This document shows positions 34,095 through 51,044 of a stretch of 64,000 nucleotides of DNA, piece after piece. The translations under genes were made by a program, and so were the position numbers. Every line of letters begins with the position of its first letter. Positions within the stretch are counted from its first letter, which is position 1. The notes under the pieces are model-generated. The model worked only from the letters and a program-made list of their open reading frames with translations, was not told where the DNA came from and made no database searches. The stretch lies in contig NZ_JAEUGD010000067.1 in the NCBI RefSeq assembly GCF_016775155.1, positions 62,001 through 126,000 of the forward strand, in the 5' to 3' direction. This stretch comes from Fulvivirga marina. GTDB lineage: Bacteria; Bacteroidota; Bacteroidia; Cytophagales; Cyclobacteriaceae.

Positions 34095-34673
34095 TCAATA
34101 AGCATTTACATGTTTATGCTTTTTCTTGATCCTGTTTTTGCAGATATCAATAAATACGGTTTGATTAATAGCCTGCAAGTGCATACCAAATTTGGTTTTT
34201 GACTGCTGCTCCACCAAGATCCCCTCATAACCTGCAAGAGGTCCGCTTACAATTTCTACAACTTCTCCCCTATTAAAATTAGGCTCCACGATTAGCTCCT
34301 GATTAAGATTAACCATCCGCTTAATTCCTTCAATACACTTATTACTTACTATAGAAGGTTTACCCCCACAATGTATATAGGTTGTAATCTTACGTGTCTG
34401 GCATATTTTGTAAAGGTTGCTTTCAAGCGTATTTACAAAAATATAGCTAGGGAAAAGCACTTGATCGATAATTTTTTTCTGACGGTTATTCCAGACCCTG
34501 AGTGTTTTGGTTATGGGTAAAAACACATCATAACCCTTAATAAGTAATTCTTTCTGAACTACTTTTTCAGCTCTGGGAGCCGTGTAAAAAATGTACCAAT
34601 TCACTTTCCTGTCAAGTCCAGTTGGATCACCATTGTCATCCATCCGAAATGGTTGCTTAGGGGTTTGGGGCAT
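34095..34673 (-). CDS. NusG-like transcription antiterminator (UpxY/RfaH/LoaP type)
   Basis: 192 residues. An N-terminal NGN domain (about 24-120: VNWYIFYTAPRAEKVVQKEL, VLFPSYIFV) and a C-terminal KOW domain (about 130-185: GEVVEIVSGPLAGYEGILVEQ) are separated by a short linker. This is the size and layout of operon-specific NusG paralogues rather than housekeeping NusG. It is the first gene of the PKS operon, 116 bp before the 3506-residue subunit. Relatives (LoaP in Bacillus polyketide operons, UpxY in Bacteroides capsule operons) keep RNA polymerase elongating through long operons. The likely job is to let transcription reach the loading PKS gene more than 30 kb downstream, past the internal hairpins. 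An alternative start at Met11 is possible. Confidence 0.93.
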   Translation of the reverse strand: MPQTPKQPFRMDDNGDPTGLDRKVNWYIFYTAPRAEKVVQKELLIKGYDVFLPITKTLRVWNNRQKKIIDQVLFPSYIFVNTLESNLYKICQTRKITTYIHCGGKPSIVSNKCIEGIKRMVNLNQELIVEPNFNRGEVVEIVSGPLAGYEGILVEQQSKTKFGMHLQAINQTVFIDICKNRIKKKHKHVNAY

Positions 34674-35569: not shown

Positions 35570-35641
35570 TCTGATAGCAGGGCTCGAACCTGCGTCCACC
35601 CGGTCCCAGAGCCGGGCGCTCTACCACTGAGCTATATCAGA
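35570..35641 (-). tRNA. tRNA-like gene 1, 8-nt anticodon loop (tRNA-Pro-like, C+UGG)
   Basis: 72 nt, read on the minus strand. A 7-bp acceptor stem (TCTGATA/TATCAGA), T8-A9, 4-bp D stem with loop AGTGGTA, 5-bp anticodon stem CCCGG/CCGGG, variable loop TGGAC, 5-bp T stem and canonical T loop TTCGAGC are all perfect. The anticodon loop is CTCTGGGA, eight bases instead of seven. With U33 and G37 in place it reads as a four-base anticodon CUGG, that is Pro anticodon UGG with an added C. The predicted discriminator base is U and no CCA is encoded. It may be a frameshift-type decoder or a tRNA mimic with another task. Confidence 0.75.
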
Positions 35642-35647
35642 TGCCAA

Positions 35648-35719
35648 AACGGGTGTAGGGCTCGAACCTACGTCTGCCCGGGTGAAGAGCCGGGTATTCT
35701 ACCGCTGAATTAACCCATT
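35648..35719 (-). tRNA. tRNA-like gene 2, 8-nt anticodon loop (tRNA-Glu-like, C+UUC)
   Basis: 72 nt on the minus strand with the same architecture as its neighbour. The acceptor stem is AATGGGT/ACCCGTT (one G-U pair), the D stem ATTC/GAAT with loop AGCGGTA, the anticodon stem CCCGG/CCGGG, the variable loop CAGAC and the T loop TTCGAGC. The anticodon loop is CTCTTCAC, eight bases. Read with U33 and A37 it gives a four-base anticodon CUUC, that is Glu anticodon UUC with an added C. Its first base is the last base of the stop codon of the upstream 461-residue gene, and 6 nt separate it from tRNA-like gene 1, so one transcript probably carries all three. Confidence 0.75.
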
Positions 35720-37104
35720 CAATTATTAACCGGATCAAATGGTTTTGCATTTTTACCGGAAAAGTATCTATGCCTTTTCAATACGCTAGCCAGAAAGGGA
35801 CTTGCCACCTCAACTCCATGAACCAGTTCCGGTGTAGGCCTGAACTCCTCTACACCATGCTGCCTTGGAGCAATCCATCCCGATTTCACGGCATCAATTC
35901 CTGCCTCATGACAGTATTTAACAACAAGGTCTTTATTACAACCCCTGATTCCCTTAAATACTTCCCATGGCAGTGGCAGTTTATTCCAAACTTCTGTATT
36001 TGGATCCAGCTTTCCTCCTGAAGCTCGATGCCAGGCCGCCACATCTGCGGCCATGAGTCTCATTACTTTTCCAAAACAGACCTCATCCAGGACAAACTCC
36101 ATCCCCATCGAATAGATGACATTCATCCACTGATCTCTGGCTTTATTCCATGCCCCTGCGGTATTGTTCCAGGTAGTAGAGTCATTTCCTCTCCGCACGA
36201 TCATAGTTTGAAGATTAATAGAACTCCTTGTCCATACTTCGTCCAGCAATGTGGCTATCTCCTGCAGAATATTAGTCCATTTACCCAACAGCCTCCCCTT
36301 CTGCTCGTCTGTCAAATGAGACAATACCTCCTGACCTGTATATATATGAGCCATAGCCAACCATTCTGTATTGCTTTCTCTAGTTCCAACTTTTTCTCTA
36401 CCAAAGAGGCTCTTTCCAACGACGTACTCTCCTTTACACCTTTTATATAACATGTCGCTGACTTCGTCATATGCTCTGGCCTGGCTCTGGTTCGTAAACA
36501 CACTTCTGAGATTGCATCGTGCATTAAAGTAAGCAATAAAGCAGGCTGTATTTTTATCCTTTATAAAGCTCTCGTACTCCAGGTGATGTACAATACCATG
36601 CTTGGCGATCTTCTGGAACTCGACCTTCTTTACCTCTCGTTCATATTTCAGCAGCTTGTTTTCAAGCCTTTTAAGAAGTCTCCATCTTTTATTATAGGCT
36701 CTTTTCGACAGGTCCAAGCCTGCAGCTTTTCTTTGAGCTCTATCTAAGCGACCGGAAAGAAAGTTATTGTCGCCTACCTCTTTCTGAATTAGTGGTGATA
36801 CCTTACCAATAAAACCTTTTATGTCGGGAATATAATCGTAGTTAACACCTGCTATATTTTCCAGTTTGAAAATCTCTACGGCTTTCTTTATCTGTCTCTC
36901 AGCTCCTACTGCCCTTGCAAATTCCTGAGCCATGGAGCTATAGCCAAAGACCTGTCTTTTCAAAGACCCCCTAGCAGCTTTGTCGAGTATGCTTCTCTCC
37001 AATGTGCTTAGGTCGTCCTTTAAAATTTCAATTACAGCTTCTGCAATATCTTCTGGTCGCTTTCTTAATTGCAAACTTTGGTATAGTTCTTTCAGCTTAT
37101 CCAT
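35719..37104 (-). CDS. unrecognised 461-residue protein linked to the two tRNA-like genes
   Basis: I do not recognise the family. The protein is mainly alpha-helical and basic in the middle, has no signal peptide or membrane segment, and starts with MDKLKELYQSLQLRKRPEDI. Stretches that look conserved are RLDRAQRKAAGLDLSKRAYN (about 120-140), the following Arg/Lys-rich helices (to about 175), TMIVRRGNDSTTWNNTAGAW (about 305-325) and HRASGGKLDP (about 370). The basic helices would suit RNA binding. The TGA stop shares its A with the first base of a tRNA-like gene, so the coding sequence and the RNAs look like one unit and processing of one would cut the other. A role in binding, processing or charging these RNAs is inference from position. 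Confidence 0.85.
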   Translation of the reverse strand: MDKLKELYQSLQLRKRPEDIAEAVIEILKDDLSTLERSILDKAARGSLKRQVFGYSSMAQEFARAVGAERQIKKAVEIFKLENIAGVNYDYIPDIKGFIGKVSPLIQKEVGDNNFLSGRLDRAQRKAAGLDLSKRAYNKRWRLLKRLENKLLKYEREVKKVEFQKIAKHGIVHHLEYESFIKDKNTACFIAYFNARCNLRSVFTNQSQARAYDEVSDMLYKRCKGEYVVGKSLFGREKVGTRESNTEWLAMAHIYTGQEVLSHLTDEQKGRLLGKWTNILQEIATLLDEVWTRSSINLQTMIVRRGNDSTTWNNTAGAWNKARDQWMNVIYSMGMEFVLDEVCFGKVMRLMAADVAAWHRASGGKLDPNTEVWNKLPLPWEVFKGIRGCNKDLVVKYCHEAGIDAVKSGWIAPRQHGVEEFRPTPELVHGVEVASPFLASVLKRHRYFSGKNAKPFDPVNN

Positions 37105-41489: not shown

Positions 41490-44400
41490 GTGGAAACTCT
41501 AACCATCCCTACCCTTGAAGAAGATGTAACTGTACTCCAATCTACCGACTCAAACTTTTCCGGGCTAGACCCAATACTTGGTAGTTTAGGAGTATTAGTG
41601 GGACTTCTTAAAAAAAATGAAGATGATTCTTACTCGTTGATCCCAGAATGGTTCACCAACCCATATGTTAATACAAAAGCAGGGATCGTTAAGAATCCGG
41701 CTGAGTTTAACACCCTGTTTGAAGAACTACTTGGGAAAATCGGAGGAAATGCCTTTGGTATACCCGTCCAGAACCCTGCTCTTTTAGGTAATTGGTTCCC
41801 TATCAAATACCAAAAAGACGGCAAAGATGTCAATACAGGTGTATACGCTGTAACTTATCAGACAGGAAGCAGTACGGTGATGGGTGTCGGTGTTTATCAC
41901 GCCTGGGAATTTGGTACCCCACCAAGCTTACAATCAGCCGTCTGGGGTTTGGTACCTTTCGTAGCTATTGATGCCGAAGACACTAATAACCCTATTAAAA
42001 TGACCTTTGTAACAGAAGGTTTTCCGATCGTTTTCGGTGCAGCAGTAAATGGCCCTGACCCATCCTCTCCTATAGTTGATATCAATGGTATTCAGTTTAA
42101 TGGTGTTAAAGTCAATGCCAATATTGACCTCGCAAAAGAAATAGCAAGAAAACCTCCATTCGAGTTAGGCATAGAAATCATTGGCTTACAGTTAGCTGGT
42201 GAAGACAAGCCTTCCAATCGGTCGCTATCCGACCTGAAGGCTATAACGGTAGAAAAGATCATGAATACCGCCTCCAGCCTTTTTGTGGGTGGACTAAGCA
42301 AAGTATTCCCTGAACTTAGCGATAACATTCAGTACTTCCCTCCTCTTTTTGGCTTAAGCTCACAGGTACCCAAGGCAGCTGGTACGCCGAATGCCAAACT
42401 GCCCATATTGGAGTGGTATGAGTTATTCAATGCAGCCAAAGACAATAACGCGGAAACGATTTTCCTTAACTGGTTCAATGCTATTGCCGCTGACAACAAC
42501 ACCCTGAAGACCTGGCTTTCATGCCTTTCAGGCTTCCTTAAAAAAGAAGTGAGTATCTCGGGAAGTGGCTCACGTACTTCCCCATTCCTGATTTCTCTTT
42601 TGGATGTTAGCAACATTGGCACCTTAAGCCTCTCCATGGGAACCGAGGTGGTTGGGAAAAGCACCCGGGTGCTATATCCGGGTATGGCATTTTCAGGATC
42701 ACCTATTGAATTTGGCACCTCCGGGATCGTTTTCACTATGCAGGCCGAAAGCGAACTGGCAAGGTTTCAGATCACCGGAGACTCCATTGGCCTCTCTCCT
42801 ACCATCAACTTTGCCTCAAAATTCAGTCTTCAAAACAAGACAGCGTCTCAACCTCTGGCTGAATTTAATCTTGATAGTAAGGAGTATTCCATTGGCTCCC
42901 TCGAAGGAGGTATGTCACTGGGAACAGATGCGAGCATGATGCCCTGGTTTGGTCTTAATGCAGTGACCATAGGAAGTACGCACTACGACACATTGAACCT
43001 GCTCTCACCAGGGCAATTGGCCAATGCAGGTGCTGCTGCCCTAAGCGAAGGCTTGCAAAGCCTCCTGGACTTCGGCACCGACAACAAAAACCTTTCGGAG
43101 AGTATTGGGGCGATTATCGGGCTACAGGCTCCTTCATCAGCAGGAACAAACTGGCCTGGCGATCTGGTACCGCCGTTCTCTCCCACGGGAATGGTTACCT
43201 CGATCACCAACCCGATTGGTTCCTGGGCCAGTTACTATACCAACATACTCTCCTACCAACAACAGATCTCAGGAAAAGAGGCTTTCTATTACGTAGTAGA
43301 ATCATTTGCTCAACTGTTGCAAGCCTCCACGGAATCGTTACCCATTAGCATCTCAGGATCAGGAACTCAGCAAGACCCCTGGAAAGCAGGAATATCTATA
43401 AAAGATCAGACTTTACCGGCCTATCTCGTCTGTTATCAGGAGAATACTACAGATTACATCAATCTGAATCTGGGGCTTGAACTTGCTCCTGAACTTACGA
43501 TAAAAGGCACGGACATCGTAGCCTCTCTTTCCCTGGATGCTGCCACCATTCAGCTGCCCAAAGATGGAAACCTGAGTAACACCACAGCCAATTGGCTCTC
43601 CGGAGTAGCGGCACGCCTCACCCTGCCAAACGGTTTTGAAACACCGGCCATAGGCGGTATGCAGGTAAAGGTTGACACCTCTCAACTATCTGCTACCTGG
43701 GACCAGACCGATGGCTGGTCGTGGTCTATGCTGGTCAAGGGGCCTACTCTGGTGGTAGATGGTACACCCACAGCCTTGGGTACTGACCTGAATTTTGACG
43801 ATCAATCTACACTTCAGGATCTGGTAAAACAAAGTGCTTCAACTTTCGGTCCCTTCCTGGTATCAGCATTAGGTACCATGCTTGTCCGTACTCAGTCTAA
43901 AGCGGGTCTCTTTGTGGCGGGTGCCATGGGACTGGTCAAAGACCTGTCCACCGCTCCGGCATTCCCGAAAAGCGGCCTTTCCTGGTCAGGGTTTGAGCTT
44001 TACCCATTCACAAGTTTCGATGATCCCTGGGCGGATTTTAACAAACAGATAAACCAACTATTTAATACTGATGTAAAGGGTAAAAGCGTACTTGGTTTGC
44101 TGGCCTATACCATGTCAGGGACTGAAGACGCGCCGGCCATTACGGGTAGCGGCACATTCTCTGATCCCTGGATCACCCCCATTCCGTTTGGTTTTAACTT
44201 ACCGGTATGGTACAACACAGATAAACAAAACCTCGGACTGGGTTTTGGCCGCCAGGACGTATTCAATTACCCCAGCACTGGCACCGCACAAATAGCATTT
44301 AACCTGGAGCAGAGGCTAAACCTGGTCGAGTATTCTACTCAGGATCAAAAAATAGAATTTATCGATGATGTTCCTTCATTGAGTTTCATCGGCACACTTT

Positions 44401-47400
44401 TCAAGCCTAATGCCAAACTCGTTGATCTTGGAAGTATCGGTAGCATAGATAAAATTATGCTGGGACTAACCCTGTCATTATACAACGGTCAGGTCAAGGT
44501 TCAGCCAGTAATAACTTTGGTCAATGCTCAACTTAGTACGGACTTTCAGTCTGACCTGGTAACACTGGAGCAATTCCTGAGTGATAGCTTTGCATCTAAC
44601 CTTCAGTCTGCATTTTTAGCGTTACTCAATGGTGCGCTACAGGTAGCCACAGACGTGGAAGCGGTAACCAGCAATAGTGGATTCCAAACTACATATAGCC
44701 TGCTACAATTAATTGGGCTCACCATGGCCCGGGCCAATGACCAGGCACCGTATGGCATCAATACCAATGGCTGGAATGCGATGCTGGCTAACCCGGACAC
44801 TTACTTGGAAAACCAGTTCGAATCCCTGCTTTTGGACCCCTACCACAGAAGTGAACTATTTAACTTCTTGCAGCAAGTTACCGGCATTACTATTCCAGGC
44901 CTGCCCGAACCTGCTCTGCAATTCCTCTCCGCAATCAATATCTGCGGACCTGCAAGTCAGGGGTATCCGTTATTGCCCGGGGCCGTGCTTGAAGTATTCA
45001 CCAATCCGGTACAAGGACTTACGTCCAGATTTGAGGCTTTCTTTACTGACAAAGAGGCCGTAAAAACTCTGGCGGCTCAAATAGCTTCCAATTTACCTCC
45101 AGAGGATTATGGCCCACTCACTTTCAGCACCACAGCCAATGGAGTAATTTCCTTAGGTATCTTACCAAAAAATGTGATCAATCTGGGAGGATTTGTAAAC
45201 CTGTATGGCAATGTTCAGCTGAACATCAGTGATGAAACCCTTACATTCACTGGAGATATTTATATACCGAAAGTAGGCTTGACACTGGCATCATCACTCG
45301 GACTGCGAATGACGGATGGCACTTTACAAACTCCCGACTTTGCCGTACAGCTTATTTGGGGAGATGGACTAAAACCTGCTGCCAGCCCGCTAGACATTTA
45401 TCCTTTCGAAGCCTCTGCCTTCGTAGATCAGGTGTCGGAACTGGCCCCCGCATATACCTTAAACATCCTGCTCAATGCCATATTCGAAGAAGAGCTTCTT
45501 GGAAAATATGAATTCGTACAGAAGATCTTCGAAGGCCTGGGCATAGGTAAAGATGAAGATGGTATCTGGCGTATGCCATCCCTAATGGGTATTTTGTCAG
45601 ACCCATTGGGCTGGATACTTTCAGAAGAAGTACTGGGTACTACCGACGGAAAGTTCAGTGTAGCTAAGCTGATCGCCCTGCTGGGTAATCTTCCTGAGGT
45701 TAAGTACAACAATATACAAGTCTCACCTATCCCTGGCAAGGGAATGGAATTAACCGGCCTGCCTTATGGGTTCAAAGTAGGCATGAACGGAGAAAACAAC
45801 CTGGCTACCTTCGACTTTGGCGTAGACACCATCTCTATTGTCAGCAATGAGGCAGCCATTAAAAACCTGAAATTTGGGGTAAGCCTCAATCAGGACTATC
45901 AACCCGCTTTTTCAGGTGGAATGGATGTTGAGGCTACCATATCATCACTTCAGGATGGATTTTTCGTTCATGTGGCTTATGACAAACAGTTCCAGCTCAG
46001 CATTTCGCAAGGTACACCTGCTCAACCAACAGGTCTGGGAGTACAACTGCTGCCCTTCCAGGGGTGGGGTACGCTGGCCGGGCAAGCCCTGGCTACCGGA
46101 TCTGCGGTAGTGATCAACGATGTGGTTCCGAAATTAATGAACTACCTGCTGACCAAGTACCCGGCAGACACAACCGATGTTGGCAAGTTCCTGGCAGCCA
46201 TGGATGGATTTGCCACCAAAACAGATGTAAAAGACCTCGTCACCAACATTATCAATGCCTTTTCTCAGGCACTCAGCGAGGGAAAAAGTGGAGACGAGCT
46301 CCTTCAGCAATTAGAAAGTGTCGCTTTTACCTGGGTGAAACAACGTTTCTCGACAGCAAATGCCAACGACACGGCCACGGCTATTGTAGACCTCTTGAAA
46401 CTGGCGTTACCCGAAGATTCTCTGTCTGTCATCGGAGGACAGATCCAGTACATTCCAAGCGACAATTTGCCATTCAAACTGCTTGCTGGATTAGATTCTA
46501 CCAATTCGATTGGTTTATGGGCCGGCGTAGAGCTGCCGGACATGAAGCTGCTTAAAATGGAGATTGCCCCGACAGGTGTAGCCTACAATTTGGATAACAG
46601 CAATTTCGATATCTCCTTCGGGCTCGACATGGTAGTGCCTATTGAAAACCTCAATGGTCCCGGCCTGAGCATCAGCTTTAACAATGGCCAGTTCAATCTC
46701 AGCTTCGACCCATTGGCAGACCCTAACCAACTGGGCACTCCGTCTTATCTGAATGTGGAATTACTTCCAAGCTTTTTTGGAGGCGGTGATGTGGGTGACA
46801 AAGTTTCCACATGGACACTCAATGTTATCAAGGATGTATTGCCTCGCTATGTTTCCCTGCTGGTGCTTAATCAGGACCAGGTAAAAGCATGGTTACAGGC
46901 TCCACTGATCAAATCCTCTACCATTAGCCCGGCAGTACTGCTTGAAGCTACTCAGGTAGTCGAATATAACAAGAATCAGGATGTTTATGTCCTCAACTCA
47001 TTTGATGAGCTGGCGAAGCTAACACCCAAAGAGTTTTTAGGAAACTTCCTGTTTACCCTACTCGAAAATCAATGGACTTTACTCACCTTTAGTAAAGAAG
47101 GCAAAATTATTATAGGTCCCAAAACCAATGTAGAAGGCTTCTATGGTTTACTGGTACAGGCTCCCAACCTATCGATTTCGGCTATTCCAAACCTGGTTTT
47201 TCAACTGGGAGCAAAAAACACCGATTGGATCACCAATAGTTCGGACGGAACCGCAAAATTTGGAGGCCCGGGAATCGGGTTCTATGTTCCGATTGCAAAA
47301 ACAGAAAGTGATACATACACTGTAGACTTTACCCATTTCAACCTGGTACTAAACAATGTCGGGTTTGATATAATAGGCAAAAACGGACAACCCATTGTGG

Positions 47401-50400
47401 ATTTGAGCCGGTTTAAACTTGGAGCGGTAGATCCCCGTGCTTTATTTGACCTTCAGTTTAAAGGCAATGACCCTATACAAATTAGTTTTGGAGCAGGTCT
47501 TACACTGGATGACATGGGACTATCCTTATCCCCCAAAACTATCTCTGAAGGAGGCGGTAACAACCCGATAGCCAAAAATGTCCTAGGATCAGGAGAATCG
47601 AATGATGACAATAAAACAACGGACCCTCGATTCTCTGTAGATGTTGGCTACGTTGACAAACTCTGGGTAAATCTCCGCAGCAATACCGGAAACGGCCATG
47701 AGGTGATCATTCCTGTACAAAGAAGCTTTGGCCCCTTGTACATTGAAAACATTGGCCTTGGATGGGAAGGTGACAAAACACCGCCATTACTTGACTTCAT
47801 AAGTTCAGGAAGTTTCGAACTGGCTGGCTTCAAGGCGGCACTGCAGGGCTTGCGCGTAGGCATGCCGGTTACCGCACCTACCGATTGGAGTAAATACACC
47901 ATCGATCTGGATGGTTTTGCTATAGATTACACCGGTGGTATCACTATCAACGCCGGCTTCCTGAAAAGTGAAACCAATGATATTGTAGAGTATACTGGTG
48001 TTGCCATCCTCTCGGCCAAAAAATTCTCACTTGGAGCCTTAGGGTCTTACGCCCAGATAACGCTAAAAGATAAAAGTACTGCAACCTCCATGTTTATTTT
48101 CGGAGTGCTTAATGCGCCACTGGGAGGTATTCCTGCATTTTTCATCGAAGGCATTGCCGCCGGGTTTGCCTACAACCGGAGCCTGGATATTCCAGGCATC
48201 GAAAATGTAGCCAGCTTCCCACTGGTCAAAGGGGTAGCAGACGGTTCCTTTACCGAAGGAGAAGATCCAATGGGTGCTCTGATCAAGCTGAATGATGTCA
48301 TTCGTCCAAAAGTAGGGCAATACTGGTTTGCCGCAGGCCTTAAATTCTCCTCGTTCCAGCTATTGGAGACCACAGCCCTGCTTTTCCTCAGCTTTGGTAA
48401 AGATTTCGAATTCAACCTATTGGGAGTCTCCACGGCAACGCTTCCTCCCAAGGTCGGTCCTGATCTGGCCCTGGCCTACATGGAGCTAGCCATTAAAGTC
48501 ACTGTCAGTCCGGCAGCAGGGTACGTTTCAGCAGAAGCTCAATTGACGCCAAATTCATTTGTTCTGGCCAAGGACGTTAAATTAACCGGAGGATTTGCCT
48601 TCTATTTATGGTTTAAAGACATCCCTCTTAAGGATGGCGGAATGATACCCGCCGGAGATTTTGTAGTCACCTTGGGAGGTTATCACCCTGCATTCCAGAA
48701 GCCCGGTTACTACCCAGACGTTCCCCGCCTGGGCATCAGCTGGAAATTAAATTTCTCAGTAGGAAAAGTGTCTATAACCGGCGGTGCATATTTTGCTATC
48801 TGCCCTACCGCAATCATGTCAGGAGGCTATTTGAAAATAGCTTTCGATGCAGGCCCGCTCATTGCAGGTCTGGATGCTTATGCAAACTTCCTGATCGAAT
48901 GGGAACCGTTCTATTTCAATGTAGGCATCGGAGTAACCGTATACGCAGGCTTCCAGGCCACCATTGCCGGGGTTTCTATCAGGCTCGTAGCTAAACTCGG
49001 ATGTACACTCGAGCTGCAGGGTCCTCCGGTATTCGGCAGAGTGGAAGTAGACTGGTTCGTGATCAGTTTCTCCATTCCTATTGGCAATCAGGAAAACCAC
49101 CCCAGCACAGCAAGTCTGGATTGGTCAGGGTTTGAAGCTTCCTTCCTACCCGCAAGTACCTCCTCAGGAGGCACCGCCAAAGCAAGCACCAACATAATCA
49201 TGCTCGCAGATGGAAACGGACAGCAGAAGAATCAGCAGGTGGTAAAATGGACGGCACAAAAAGGATTGGAACAAGACAGTAACGATGGGGATGAGGGTAC
49301 AAATAAGGATGAATGGGTATTAAATCCAGTGCCCTGGATGCTCACTGTAGAATCAGCCATCCCGAGTAGCATGGTTACAGTATCCAGCTCGGACACTTCC
49401 TTACAGGGTAGTGACCAGATTGGCGTAAGGCCAATGGGGAAAGAAGATAAGCTGAAATCCCCTATGACCATTAAACTTACTGATACTTCCGGAACAGAAA
49501 TAAACCTCAAAGAACGTAACATAAGCCTTTCGGCTAACAATAACGGTGCTCCATCCGCCTTATGGTCACGATCAGAACTGGACAGGGAAGTTGCCCCCGA
49601 CCCTGATACCATGCTCATTTCTAATGTGCTGTTCGGGTTAGTACTCGATGCCAGTCAGTATGTGTACTCAGGAGTTGTTCCCGAATTTCCGATAGAGAAC
49701 CTGGCTTATGTTATAGGTGATACCAAACGACTTTCGTTTGATTATACGCCCAAATATCCGGCTTCGGAACTTTATCCGGCTACCGACCAGCAAAAAGCCT
49801 TTACCATGATCAAACAGTCAATCATGGATGAGACGGTTATTGCTATCAGAAATGATATTTATAGCGCGCTTCAGGCTTCAGCCATCAATGCTCCGCTAAG
49901 TCCTAACCTTACGGTAATGGCATCATCGGTCAACCTTATCCTACAAGACTTCCCTGTACTTGCCAGAATAGGGATCTATCAGAATAATGGTATAGTAGAG
50001 CCAGGCCAGACTATGAAGCTACAAAGTTCTCCACAGTCTTTGGCCGCGAAACCGACTCTTATTCACGAACCACAACTGGTGGCACAATTACAGTCTTACA
50101 AGACCACCAGTAAGGATGCCCCGGAAACAACTCACTTGCCCAAATTGGCCCGAAAAGCAAAAGGACAATGGAAAACAGTCAACAAAATTACAAACAAGAG
50201 TTACCTGGCTTCACTTGTCGACTTTGTTAGTACTAAAAGCAAGACATTATATGACGGCACTACATTGGTATGGAAAACTGATCCTAAACTAGCGCTTGAC
50301 CTGGAGCTTCAGGGAAACCTGCCTAGTCTAATCGCCAGTTTTGATGAATATGGCAGTCTGCTAAGCTTTAACCATTTCAGCGGGTCCGAAACTTTTGATC

Positions 50401-51044
50401 TTCCTCCCGAAACAGGTCAGGTCGTAATCCAGGGTTTTGAAACCAATCCTGAAGAAGCGCTGGGCTGGCAAATAAACACCAACCTTTCCAAGGTTAACGG
50501 TGGATGGTTCCTTGCAGACGGATGCCTCGTTCGTGCTCAGAATAGCAGACAAATAAAAGCCCGTACTGGTAAAATTGGTCATGTAAAAGCCTCTGACCTG
50601 ATTGACAACAACCATATAAAAGGTGCTTCGAATGTAATCCAAAAAGGATGGATACAATCGGTTTTCCCAAGGCAAAGCCAAGTATTTGGCGTGATGCTAA
50701 AAGGAAAAGTAAACATCGAATCAATCAAAGTTTCCATTGCAGCCGATGAAGTACCCACTAAAGCCGGGAAAATTAAAGTCTCTTCGGCCCAGACTTACAA
50801 AGAAAATACGCTTTTACTATTTAATGCCCCTACCAAAGCTGAAGCTTACTACGGGGTTATAGTTTCTTTGATCGATAAGGAGGTAGAAATCCTTGGCATG
50901 TATGCCTTGGGTAATAACAAAACAGAAAAAAATAAATTGTCAAATCAACTCTCACTTGTACAGGGGGGAATTGATTTTAGCGATTCATCTCACCAAAAGA
51001 CCAGTGTTAAGTTAATTCAAAAACAACAAACTGATGAGCAATAG
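41490..51044 (+). CDS. giant DUF6603-type protein
   Basis: 3184 residues from a GTG start. The N-terminal part contains modules of about 264 residues marked by ISGSGSRTSPF (near 354), ISGSGTQQDPW (near 619) and ITGSGTFSDPW (near 881). The region about 2200-2530 has the DUF6603 look: FIEGIAAGFAYNRSLDIPG, FPLVKG, YWFAAGLKFSSFQ and many GLxL beta strands ending at FSIPIG. Amphipathic beta strands dominate, suggesting a very large beta-rich, perhaps lipid-handling or tube-like, structure. There is no signal peptide, membrane helix or type IX sorting domain. The last 11 bases overlap the next gene. The biochemical function of DUF6603 is unknown to me. Confidence 0.88.
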   Translation: METLTIPTLEEDVTVLQSTDSNFSGLDPILGSLGVLVGLLKKNEDDSYSLIPEWFTNPYVNTKAGIVKNPAEFNTLFEELLGKIGGNAFGIPVQNPALLGNWFPIKYQKDGKDVNTGVYAVTYQTGSSTVMGVGVYHAWEFGTPPSLQSAVWGLVPFVAIDAEDTNNPIKMTFVTEGFPIVFGAAVNGPDPSSPIVDINGIQFNGVKVNANIDLAKEIARKPPFELGIEIIGLQLAGEDKPSNRSLSDLKAITVEKIMNTASSLFVGGLSKVFPELSDNIQYFPPLFGLSSQVPKAAGTPNAKLPILEWYELFNAAKDNNAETIFLNWFNAIAADNNTLKTWLSCLSGFLKKEVSISGSGSRTSPFLISLLDVSNIGTLSLSMGTEVVGKSTRVLYPGMAFSGSPIEFGTSGIVFTMQAESELARFQITGDSIGLSPTINFASKFSLQNKTASQPLAEFNLDSKEYSIGSLEGGMSLGTDASMMPWFGLNAVTIGSTHYDTLNLLSPGQLANAGAAALSEGLQSLLDFGTDNKNLSESIGAIIGLQAPSSAGTNWPGDLVPPFSPTGMVTSITNPIGSWASYYTNILSYQQQISGKEAFYYVVESFAQLLQASTESLPISISGSGTQQDPWKAGISIKDQTLPAYLVCYQENTTDYINLNLGLELAPELTIKGTDIVASLSLDAATIQLPKDGNLSNTTANWLSGVAARLTLPNGFETPAIGGMQVKVDTSQLSATWDQTDGWSWSMLVKGPTLVVDGTPTALGTDLNFDDQSTLQDLVKQSASTFGPFLVSALGTMLVRTQSKAGLFVAGAMGLVKDLSTAPAFPKSGLSWSGFELYPFTSFDDPWADFNKQINQLFNTDVKGKSVLGLLAYTMSGTEDAPAITGSGTFSDPWITPIPFGFNLPVWYNTDKQNLGLGFGRQDVFNYPSTGTAQIAFNLEQRLNLVEYSTQDQKIEFIDDVPSLSFIGTLFKPNAKLVDLGSIGSIDKIMLGLTLSLYNGQVKVQPVITLVNAQLSTDFQSDLVTLEQFLSDSFASNLQSAFLALLNGALQVATDVEAVTSNSGFQTTYSLLQLIGLTMARANDQAPYGINTNGWNAMLANPDTYLENQFESLLLDPYHRSELFNFLQQVTGITIPGLPEPALQFLSAINICGPASQGYPLLPGAVLEVFTNPVQGLTSRFEAFFTDKEAVKTLAAQIASNLPPEDYGPLTFSTTANGVISLGILPKNVINLGGFVNLYGNVQLNISDETLTFTGDIYIPKVGLTLASSLGLRMTDGTLQTPDFAVQLIWGDGLKPAASPLDIYPFEASAFVDQVSELAPAYTLNILLNAIFEEELLGKYEFVQKIFEGLGIGKDEDGIWRMPSLMGILSDPLGWILSEEVLGTTDGKFSVAKLIALLGNLPEVKYNNIQVSPIPGKGMELTGLPYGFKVGMNGENNLATFDFGVDTISIVSNEAAIKNLKFGVSLNQDYQPAFSGGMDVEATISSLQDGFFVHVAYDKQFQLSISQGTPAQPTGLGVQLLPFQGWGTLAGQALATGSAVVINDVVPKLMNYLLTKYPADTTDVGKFLAAMDGFATKTDVKDLVTNIINAFSQALSEGKSGDELLQQLESVAFTWVKQRFSTANANDTATAIVDLLKLALPEDSLSVIGGQIQYIPSDNLPFKLLAGLDSTNSIGLWAGVELPDMKLLKMEIAPTGVAYNLDNSNFDISFGLDMVVPIENLNGPGLSISFNNGQFNLSFDPLADPNQLGTPSYLNVELLPSFFGGGDVGDKVSTWTLNVIKDVLPRYVSLLVLNQDQVKAWLQAPLIKSSTISPAVLLEATQVVEYNKNQDVYVLNSFDELAKLTPKEFLGNFLFTLLENQWTLLTFSKEGKIIIGPKTNVEGFYGLLVQAPNLSISAIPNLVFQLGAKNTDWITNSSDGTAKFGGPGIGFYVPIAKTESDTYTVDFTHFNLVLNNVGFDIIGKNGQPIVDLSRFKLGAVDPRALFDLQFKGNDPIQISFGAGLTLDDMGLSLSPKTISEGGGNNPIAKNVLGSGESNDDNKTTDPRFSVDVGYVDKLWVNLRSNTGNGHEVIIPVQRSFGPLYIENIGLGWEGDKTPPLLDFISSGSFELAGFKAALQGLRVGMPVTAPTDWSKYTIDLDGFAIDYTGGITINAGFLKSETNDIVEYTGVAILSAKKFSLGALGSYAQITLKDKSTATSMFIFGVLNAPLGGIPAFFIEGIAAGFAYNRSLDIPGIENVASFPLVKGVADGSFTEGEDPMGALIKLNDVIRPKVGQYWFAAGLKFSSFQLLETTALLFLSFGKDFEFNLLGVSTATLPPKVGPDLALAYMELAIKVTVSPAAGYVSAEAQLTPNSFVLAKDVKLTGGFAFYLWFKDIPLKDGGMIPAGDFVVTLGGYHPAFQKPGYYPDVPRLGISWKLNFSVGKVSITGGAYFAICPTAIMSGGYLKIAFDAGPLIAGLDAYANFLIEWEPFYFNVGIGVTVYAGFQATIAGVSIRLVAKLGCTLELQGPPVFGRVEVDWFVISFSIPIGNQENHPSTASLDWSGFEASFLPASTSSGGTAKASTNIIMLADGNGQQKNQQVVKWTAQKGLEQDSNDGDEGTNKDEWVLNPVPWMLTVESAIPSSMVTVSSSDTSLQGSDQIGVRPMGKEDKLKSPMTIKLTDTSGTEINLKERNISLSANNNGAPSALWSRSELDREVAPDPDTMLISNVLFGLVLDASQYVYSGVVPEFPIENLAYVIGDTKRLSFDYTPKYPASELYPATDQQKAFTMIKQSIMDETVIAIRNDIYSALQASAINAPLSPNLTVMASSVNLILQDFPVLARIGIYQNNGIVEPGQTMKLQSSPQSLAAKPTLIHEPQLVAQLQSYKTTSKDAPETTHLPKLARKAKGQWKTVNKITNKSYLASLVDFVSTKSKTLYDGTTLVWKTDPKLALDLELQGNLPSLIASFDEYGSLLSFNHFSGSETFDLPPETGQVVIQGFETNPEEALGWQINTNLSKVNGGWFLADGCLVRAQNSRQIKARTGKIGHVKASDLIDNNHIKGASNVIQKGWIQSVFPRQSQVFGVMLKGKVNIESIKVSIAADEVPTKAGKIKVSSAQTYKENTLLLFNAPTKAEAYYGVIVSLIDKEVEILGMYALGNNKTEKNKLSNQLSLVQGGIDFSDSSHQKTSVKLIQKQQTDEQ

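Follow-up and report, generated by a model that had tools for sequence, protein, structure and literature searches.

The 461-residue protein P0001, whose gene lies in the window (the whole stretch of 64,000 nucleotides from Fulvivirga marina analyzed here), and the two tRNA-like RNAs that follow this gene almost certainly constitute one functional unit. It is a horizontally spread cassette in which a single protein gene is accompanied by one to three tRNA-like RNAs, which lie next to it in the same orientation and probably serve something other than ordinary decoding. By analogy with Ro/Y RNA particles, we tentatively propose a ribonucleoprotein that would shield or decoy tRNAs against tRNA-cutting enzymes, a reading to which we assign a probability of roughly one in three.

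The gene, its RNAs and the encoded protein

Exactly two tRNA genes are found in the window by ARAGORN, both on the minus strand and both reported as 'tRNA-???' with the four-base anticodons ctgg and cttc. They score 62.2 and 50.3 bits with the tRNA model of Rfam (cut-off 29) and are resolved into 72-nt cloverleaves by structural parsing. All three approaches thus agree with the preliminary description, which had reported two such cloverleaves with 8-nt anticodon loops behind a gene for 461 residues, and the coordinates (Table 1) bear out that the two RNAs are spaced by 6 nt and that the last base of the stop codon is at the same time the first base of tRNA-like RNA 1.

Table 1. Positions of the cassette and its parts in the window
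Feature	Position	Strand	Basis
P0001 coding sequence including stop codon, 461 aa, predicted all-helical protein	35719..37104	-	Open reading frame list, homologues, AlphaFold2 model
tRNA-like RNA 1, 8-nt anticodon loop CTCTTCAC	35648..35719	-	ARAGORN, Rfam, structural parse
Anticodon loop of tRNA-like RNA 1, CUC start and variable remainder	35682..35689	-	Counted from structural parse
tRNA-like RNA 2, 8-nt anticodon loop CTCTGGGA	35570..35641	-	ARAGORN, Rfam, structural parse
Anticodon loop of tRNA-like RNA 2	35604..35611	-	Counted from structural parse

For a survey of the tRNAs in the same genome the regions of all 44 Rfam tRNA matches were fetched, with 150 of 416 candidates scored. ARAGORN recognizes 44 tRNA genes in these regions: 42 ordinary triplet tRNAs plus the pair from the window, designated '???'; one weak Rfam match (32.7 bits) is without an ARAGORN call. 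The loop comprises 7 nt in all 30 ordinary tRNAs readable by the structural parser. In a genome of the same genus, which encodes a homologue with 78% identity, odd loops and pair layout recur. At locus L017, the counterpart of tRNA-like RNA 1 carries the loop CTCTTCAT and the loop of tRNA-like RNA 2 is identical to that in the window. Since the 42 other tRNAs are ordinary and the layout recurs in the same genus, the odd loops are not a product of chance, and the earlier argument against chance decay is upheld. Three tRNA-Cys genes are located on a 3.7-kb contig of the same genome (C53; L002, positions 182-675), and another tRNA-Cys is encoded elsewhere.

In an alignment of 25 distinct members with 8-nt loops, 99.8% of the cells are paired and changes on both sides occur in 15 of 21 pairs. 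The covariation score amounts to 0.613 compared with 0.209 in shuffles, none of which (0/500) scored as high, and reaches at most 0.125 when the alignment is slid. Covariation of this strength implies that the cloverleaf is held by selection. Cloverleaf and tertiary bases of the D- and T-loops are present in the 37 standard-form members as well as in the 25 aligned ones. This form is unusual in L022 and absent in L112/L113, which have 5-nt D-loops without GG, no standard T-loop, and a retained CUC anticodon arm. Acceptor stems and discriminator bases vary widely throughout the family.

The extra base in the anticodon loop, which the preliminary description had put forward as the common deviation, is real in the window and fails as a trait of the family. 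Among 40 non-redundant members, counted after removal of two ordinary Met tRNAs and without the viral loci of a later search, 24 have loops of 8 nt, and the remaining 16 have 9 (seven), 7 (six) or 6 nt (three); the loop of L047 comprises 9 nt and that of L022 14 nt. What is kept is the start of the loop, C-U-C and rarely C-G-C. The 37 standard-form members have C at loop positions 1 and 3 (37/37 each), T at position 2 (35/37) and GG/CC at the end of the anticodon stem (37/37), a constancy that is partly due to the selection filter, which demanded the stem end GG and C at loop positions 1 and 3. Position 4 is T or G in the standard form, with C also occurring at the later loci L105, L106 and L111, and the remainder of the loop comes in 27 different strings in the 37 members. 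Both RNAs of L036 carry G33. Two lineages are apparent in Bacteroidota, one with GATRRGG-like acceptor stems and CTCT(n)AC loops of mostly 6-9 nt, the other with TCTRRTA-like acceptor stems and 8-nt loops. L019, L031 and L034, the DNA of which is 71-77% alike, have exactly the same 6-nt loop, CTCTAC, which is therefore not free to drift.

P0001 matches no family in Pfam or NCBIfam and has a match in PHROG at chance level only; a scan of four family members against PADLOC-DB 2023 likewise returned a single chance-level match (E 0.14). The AlphaFold2 model built on 18 sequences (pLDDT 85.3, pTM 0.84) is mostly helical. Foldseek retrieved no match to this model from the PDB at E<=0.001 and two from BFVD at the same threshold, both of them giant-virus proteins: A0A3G4ZSE3 from Edafosvirus (E 3.5e-14, TM by query length 0.63) and A0A5K0U9D9 from Yasminevirus (E 8.4e-11, TM by query length 0.66). 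Many polar residues are nearly invariant (R196, R200, D213, D308, W312, N313, R323, K346, R349 and D354 in the numbering of the window protein), and their conservation suggests a putative binding or active site.

Linkage, distribution and surroundings of the cassette

Of 38 locus entries, 36 have tRNA-like RNAs next to the protein gene; in 32 of these the RNAs were found by the structural parser and in four (L022, L047, L112 and L113) by eye, hairpin search or ARAGORN. The entries are partly dependent, with about 99% similarity among three S. globisporus plasmids, 91% between L086 and L087, and a common flank in L112 and L113. In the two other entries, L038 and L045, the gene is cut by the contig end and the visible flank is devoid of a tRNA-like RNA. 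A complete homologue without tRNA-like RNAs, which according to the preliminary description would speak against a joint system, was thus not encountered among the 38 entries. As to the question raised there of whether homologues are always accompanied by RNAs with 8-nt loops, this held in these entries for the RNAs and not for the length of their loops, which may also be 6, 7, 9 or 14 nt. Relatives with ordinary 7-nt loops, which if located elsewhere would have been a further counter-argument, do exist, but they too reside beside the protein gene.

Six viral contigs from a later search (L102, L106 and L110-L113) provided a fresh test, and all six carry tRNA-like RNAs. The linkage is also evident in the opposite direction. 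A pattern derived from the RNA only gave six matches in viral contigs, two of them in contigs already known from the protein search, with the protein adjacent in all six cases. In 390 genomes of the order the same pattern matched eight places in six genomes, all beside the protein, and nothing in the 380 genomes without it (Fisher p 4e-11 for co-occurrence), while four of the ten protein-bearing genomes of the order were missed. The proposal that the protein and the odd tRNA-like RNAs form one system is therefore well founded, with both partners in nearly all entries and the RNA pattern leading back to the protein.

The homologues share 28-78% identity with P0001. They occur in three of 58 relatives, ten of 390 genomes of the order and two of 345 genomes of the phylum, the own genome being counted in each time. 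Seven plasmids in PLSDB encode a homologue (five from Streptomyces, one each from Hymenobacter and Miltoncostaea), as do 17 viral contigs in IMG/VR, Niastella and one Bacteroidetes MAG; three protein queries against INPHARED found none. The patchy presence, combined with about 43% identity between the proteins of Streptomyces and Bacteroidota, indicates horizontal transfer. Three copies are decayed, namely L023 (5001-6021), in which the N-terminal part of the gene is missing and the second RNA is damaged, L024 (5001-5950), which lacks the C-terminal part of the gene and the first half of RNA 1, and L090/L037.

In Streptomyces, gene and tRNA-like RNA form a discrete block. Between L020 and L021, identity of about 95% sets in 188 bp before the gene and continues until about 35 bp behind the RNA, and similarity between L020 and L095 hardly extends beyond gene and RNA. 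A gene named YrhB is located downstream in four of the five Streptomyces plasmids, that in L021 being assigned to Imm35 by Pfam, and a DUF6000 gene in one of the five. In the Miltoncostaea plasmid (L022) the second gene upstream of the cassette encodes RlaP, and two RNA ligases, two peptidyl-tRNA hydrolases, Thg1 and two aminoacyl-tRNA synthetases are encoded within about 20 kb. L022 and L048 both belong to this 815-kb plasmid of Miltoncostaea oceani, which is rich in translation and RNA-repair genes, including those for GluRS and ThrRS, and which may be a phage-plasmid. Among the viral contigs, L042 has Thg1 as second gene upstream as well as an HNH nuclease and ordinary tRNAs, and L043 contains a terminase gene. 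Phage tRNA arrays with ordinary tRNAs near the protein gene are found, for example, in L025, L029, L105 and L110.

The neighbors in Bacteroidota have no common theme. Six of ten proteins scanned are without a Pfam match and the other four are a WYL/WCX regulator, a beta-lactamase-family protein, an HTH protein and a YhcG nuclease. The WYL/WCX-domain regulator (L086, 4989-6041, minus strand) and the YhcG-type PDDEXK nuclease (L019, 6037-7131, minus strand) are each seen near the cassette in a single locus. Two genomes belonging to one genus have a DUF805 cis-regulatory RNA motif close to the cassette (L036, 3687-3754; L038, 1481-1548, minus strand).

In the window, the cassette adjoins a PKS cluster and not a defence island. 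The cluster (11880-33978, minus strand) encodes PKS proteins of 3506 and 1273 residues, an aminotransferase, an MMPL transporter and a GMC oxidoreductase; it is preceded upstream by a NusG-like gene (34095-34673) and is partly syntenic in the genome of the same genus. The 3506-residue protein starts with a phosphatidylglycerol lysyltransferase-like domain and a beta-eliminating-lyase domain. Among the loci checked for it, such a PKS neighbor is confined to the window and the same-genus genome. A further stretch of the window (41490-51044, plus strand) contains a gene for a 3184-residue DUF6603-domain protein, which has a lipase-3 gene before it and four genes lacking a Pfam match behind it.

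Possible functions

As depicted by the preferred reading, the protein would bind the tRNA-like RNAs, with the GG-CUC anticodon arm as a common handle, and form a ribonucleoprotein with them. The RNAs would stand in for tRNAs outside normal decoding. Their most likely role would be that of decoys or of a docking platform by which enzymes cutting anticodon loops are occupied or blocked. Such enzymes could be host defence nucleases in the case of phages and toxins or bacteriocins in the case of bacteria and plasmids, and matching, or avoiding, the local nuclease would fall to the hypervariable segment of the loop. The particle would thus act in a similar way as Ro60/Y RNA does in the vicinity of RNA-repair genes; its RNA is a different one and its protein is apparently unrelated.

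This proposal is favored because neighbor genes of the kind found here have been linked to tRNA repair after cleavage of the anticodon loop (PMC7824862), phage tRNAs have been reported to evade anticodon nucleases through loop mutations (PMC10264068), and the tRNA-like part of YrlA has been suggested to be a competitive inhibitor of an anticodon nuclease (PMC7790460). According to PMC7824862, TROVE proteins and their tRNA-like partner serve as an RNA-repair platform, jumbo phages included. The shielding or decoying particle is further supported by the linkage in both directions, the selection on the cloverleaf, the features atypical of decoders, the RNA-repair neighbors, the phage tRNA arrays and the Imm35 gene downstream in a Streptomyces plasmid. 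It is weakened by the neighborhood of the window copy, the chance-level result with PADLOC and the lack of a common theme among neighbors. The constant C34 also counts against a decoy, since matching many nucleases would not obviously need it. Of the directions named in the preliminary description, a tRNA mimic served by the protein or a defence or regulatory RNA-protein system is preferred.

The family as a whole does not conform to what characterizes the loop of an ordinary elongator tRNA (7 nt, U33, purine 37). Leaving L022 with its 14 nt apart, 38 distinct loops of 6-9 nt were parsed. All 30 normal tRNAs examined have a purine at the next-to-last base (position 37 when the loop comprises 7 nt), compared with 29 of these 38 loops. 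Seven of the 38 are 7-nt triplet loops that could decode. On the phage side, CCA is encoded in two of 22 tRNA-like RNAs and in 13 of 30 other tRNAs at 14 loci (p 0.012), a difference that rests largely on L105 with eight of the 13 CCA-bearing other tRNAs and in which the 30 comparison tRNAs include one odd tRNA with a 6-nt loop (L044). A four-base decoding pair, considered in the preliminary description, does not explain the family, because the loops comprise 6, 7, 8, 9 or 14 nt and diverge after CUC; as a general function it is likewise not supported in view of the non-purine bases at the equivalent of position 37 in some loops and of L112/L113, which have lost the usual D- and T-loop features.

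A wider form of the decoding idea survives best among the alternatives, although we consider it unlikely. The RNAs would be natural recoding tRNAs whose anticodons, starting with C34, read quadruplets (8-nt loops), doublets (6-nt loops) or G-ending triplets. With the help of the protein in their charging, modification or use on the ribosome, messages that are frameshifted or contain stops would be expressed. This possibility stays alive since U33 is about as frequent (35/37) as in normal tRNAs of the own genome (28/30), since the 7-nt members look capable of decoding, and since several loops, once C34 is set aside as the extra base, continue like normal anticodons of the same genome (UUC+A37, UGG+G37, UUG+G37). 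The same U33 frequency and the seven decodable loops weaken the shielding or decoying reading. The canonical cloverleaf with its tertiary bases in the standard-form members would also suit recoding tRNAs. On the other hand, recoding hardly accounts for loops of 9 and 14 nt, for G33 in L036, for the non-purine at the equivalent of position 37 in nine of 38 loops or for the aberrant D- and T-loops of L112/L113; nor, in an unsystematic view, was a gene apparent that would be the frameshifted partner.

Rather improbable is a scheme in which host synthetases charge the tRNA-like RNAs and the protein is an enzyme that uses the amino acid non-ribosomally, with the odd loops keeping the RNAs off the ribosome. 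The nearly invariant polar residues, which look like a binding or active site, and the many loops unsuited for decoding would agree with it, and so would the lysyltransferase-like domain in the adjoining PKS cluster, but that neighbor is restricted, among the loci checked, to the two genomes mentioned, the widely varying acceptor stems and discriminator bases reveal no common identity, and the PDB search at E<=0.001 with Foldseek gave no match. Equally doubtful is a type III-like toxin-antitoxin or abortive infection system, in which a toxin would be held by the tRNA-like RNA and freed when an invader cuts or titrates the latter. RNA and protein within one unit, the scattered occurrence on plasmids, phages and chromosomes, and a hypervariable loop as possible bait are in line with such a system; against it, the protein is unusually conserved across phyla, damaged genes occur beside an intact tRNA-like RNA (L023, L024), and neither Pfam nor, beyond chance level, PADLOC offered a match.

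TilS modifies C34 of tRNA-Ile2. That the protein studied here carries out a similar modification on the tRNAs belonging to it, at the constant C34 or in the CUC arm, and thereby provides a private decoding or recognition property appears more improbable still: it is in keeping with the constant loop start and stem end, as far as these do not stem from the selection filter, but leaves the variable loop length unexplained and likewise lacks a PDB match at the threshold given. That the RNAs are no more than ordinary tRNA genes in decay or an artefact of the finder, as the decayed copies L023 and L024 might suggest, is refuted by the strong covariation and the reciprocal linkage in two phyla and phages.

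In a broader sense, and with a likelihood that we place somewhat below even, the cassettes may represent an undescribed mobile class of ribonucleoproteins in which CUC-anchored tRNA shapes with a hypervariable loop segment serve as exchangeable address or bait elements for a dedicated helical protein. The class would extend over phages, plasmids, two bacterial phyla and, to judge from the fold, giant viruses, and its programmable part would be the loop segment, by which local tRNA-targeting enzymes are recognized or escaped.

Relation to known systems

The RNA-protein system is apparently undescribed. It is absent from the family libraries searched and, as far as our searches reach, from the literature, in agreement with the earlier statement that no system with this layout was known. 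Few RNAs have been studied more closely than tRNAs, and here an inherited, horizontally mobile family with loops of 6 to 14 nt is tied to one protein family. It offers a test case either for dedicated tRNA mimics against tRNA-cutting enzymes in cells and phages or for natural non-triplet decoding, and such pairs of tRNA and protein would be of interest to decoding engineers.

An additional base in the anticodon loop is shared with SufB2-type frameshift suppressors and with yeast mitochondrial tRNA-Thr, which has an 8-nt loop (PMC7609411, PMC7803779). Those are single mutants or organelle tRNAs, whereas the RNAs described here constitute an inherited family tied to a protein. Loop-mutated phage tRNAs (van den Berg 2023) and the arrays of mycobacterial plasmids and phages likewise have altered anticodon arms and reside in phages or on linear plasmids (PMC10264068, PMC12803027); the accessible text of these publications describes triplet anticodons and mentions no dedicated partner protein, in contrast to the variable loop length and the conserved adjacent protein of the present family. 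The Edafosvirus and Yasminevirus proteins resemble P0001 in fold, share 17% identity and are uncharacterized.

A close parallel is provided by Ro60/TROVE and YrlA. There, too, a protein gene is found next to a tRNA-mimicking RNA, some of the phage and plasmid members of our family reside among RNA-repair and tRNA genes as is the case for the RNA-repair operons of Ro60/TROVE-YrlA, and the idea of a tRNA-like RNA as competitor for a nuclease is common to both (PMC7790460). When 21 members were scanned with Pfam up to E=1, a range in which the HMMER filters drop most matches above about 0.1, no match to the TROVE model appeared among the 20 families listed. In contrast to YrlA, the RNAs of the family are complete cloverleaves of about 72 nt with an anticodon arm and are classified as tRNA by Rfam. 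We favor the view that the system, apparently not a member of Ro/TROVE, would resemble Ro/Y RNA in the way it works.
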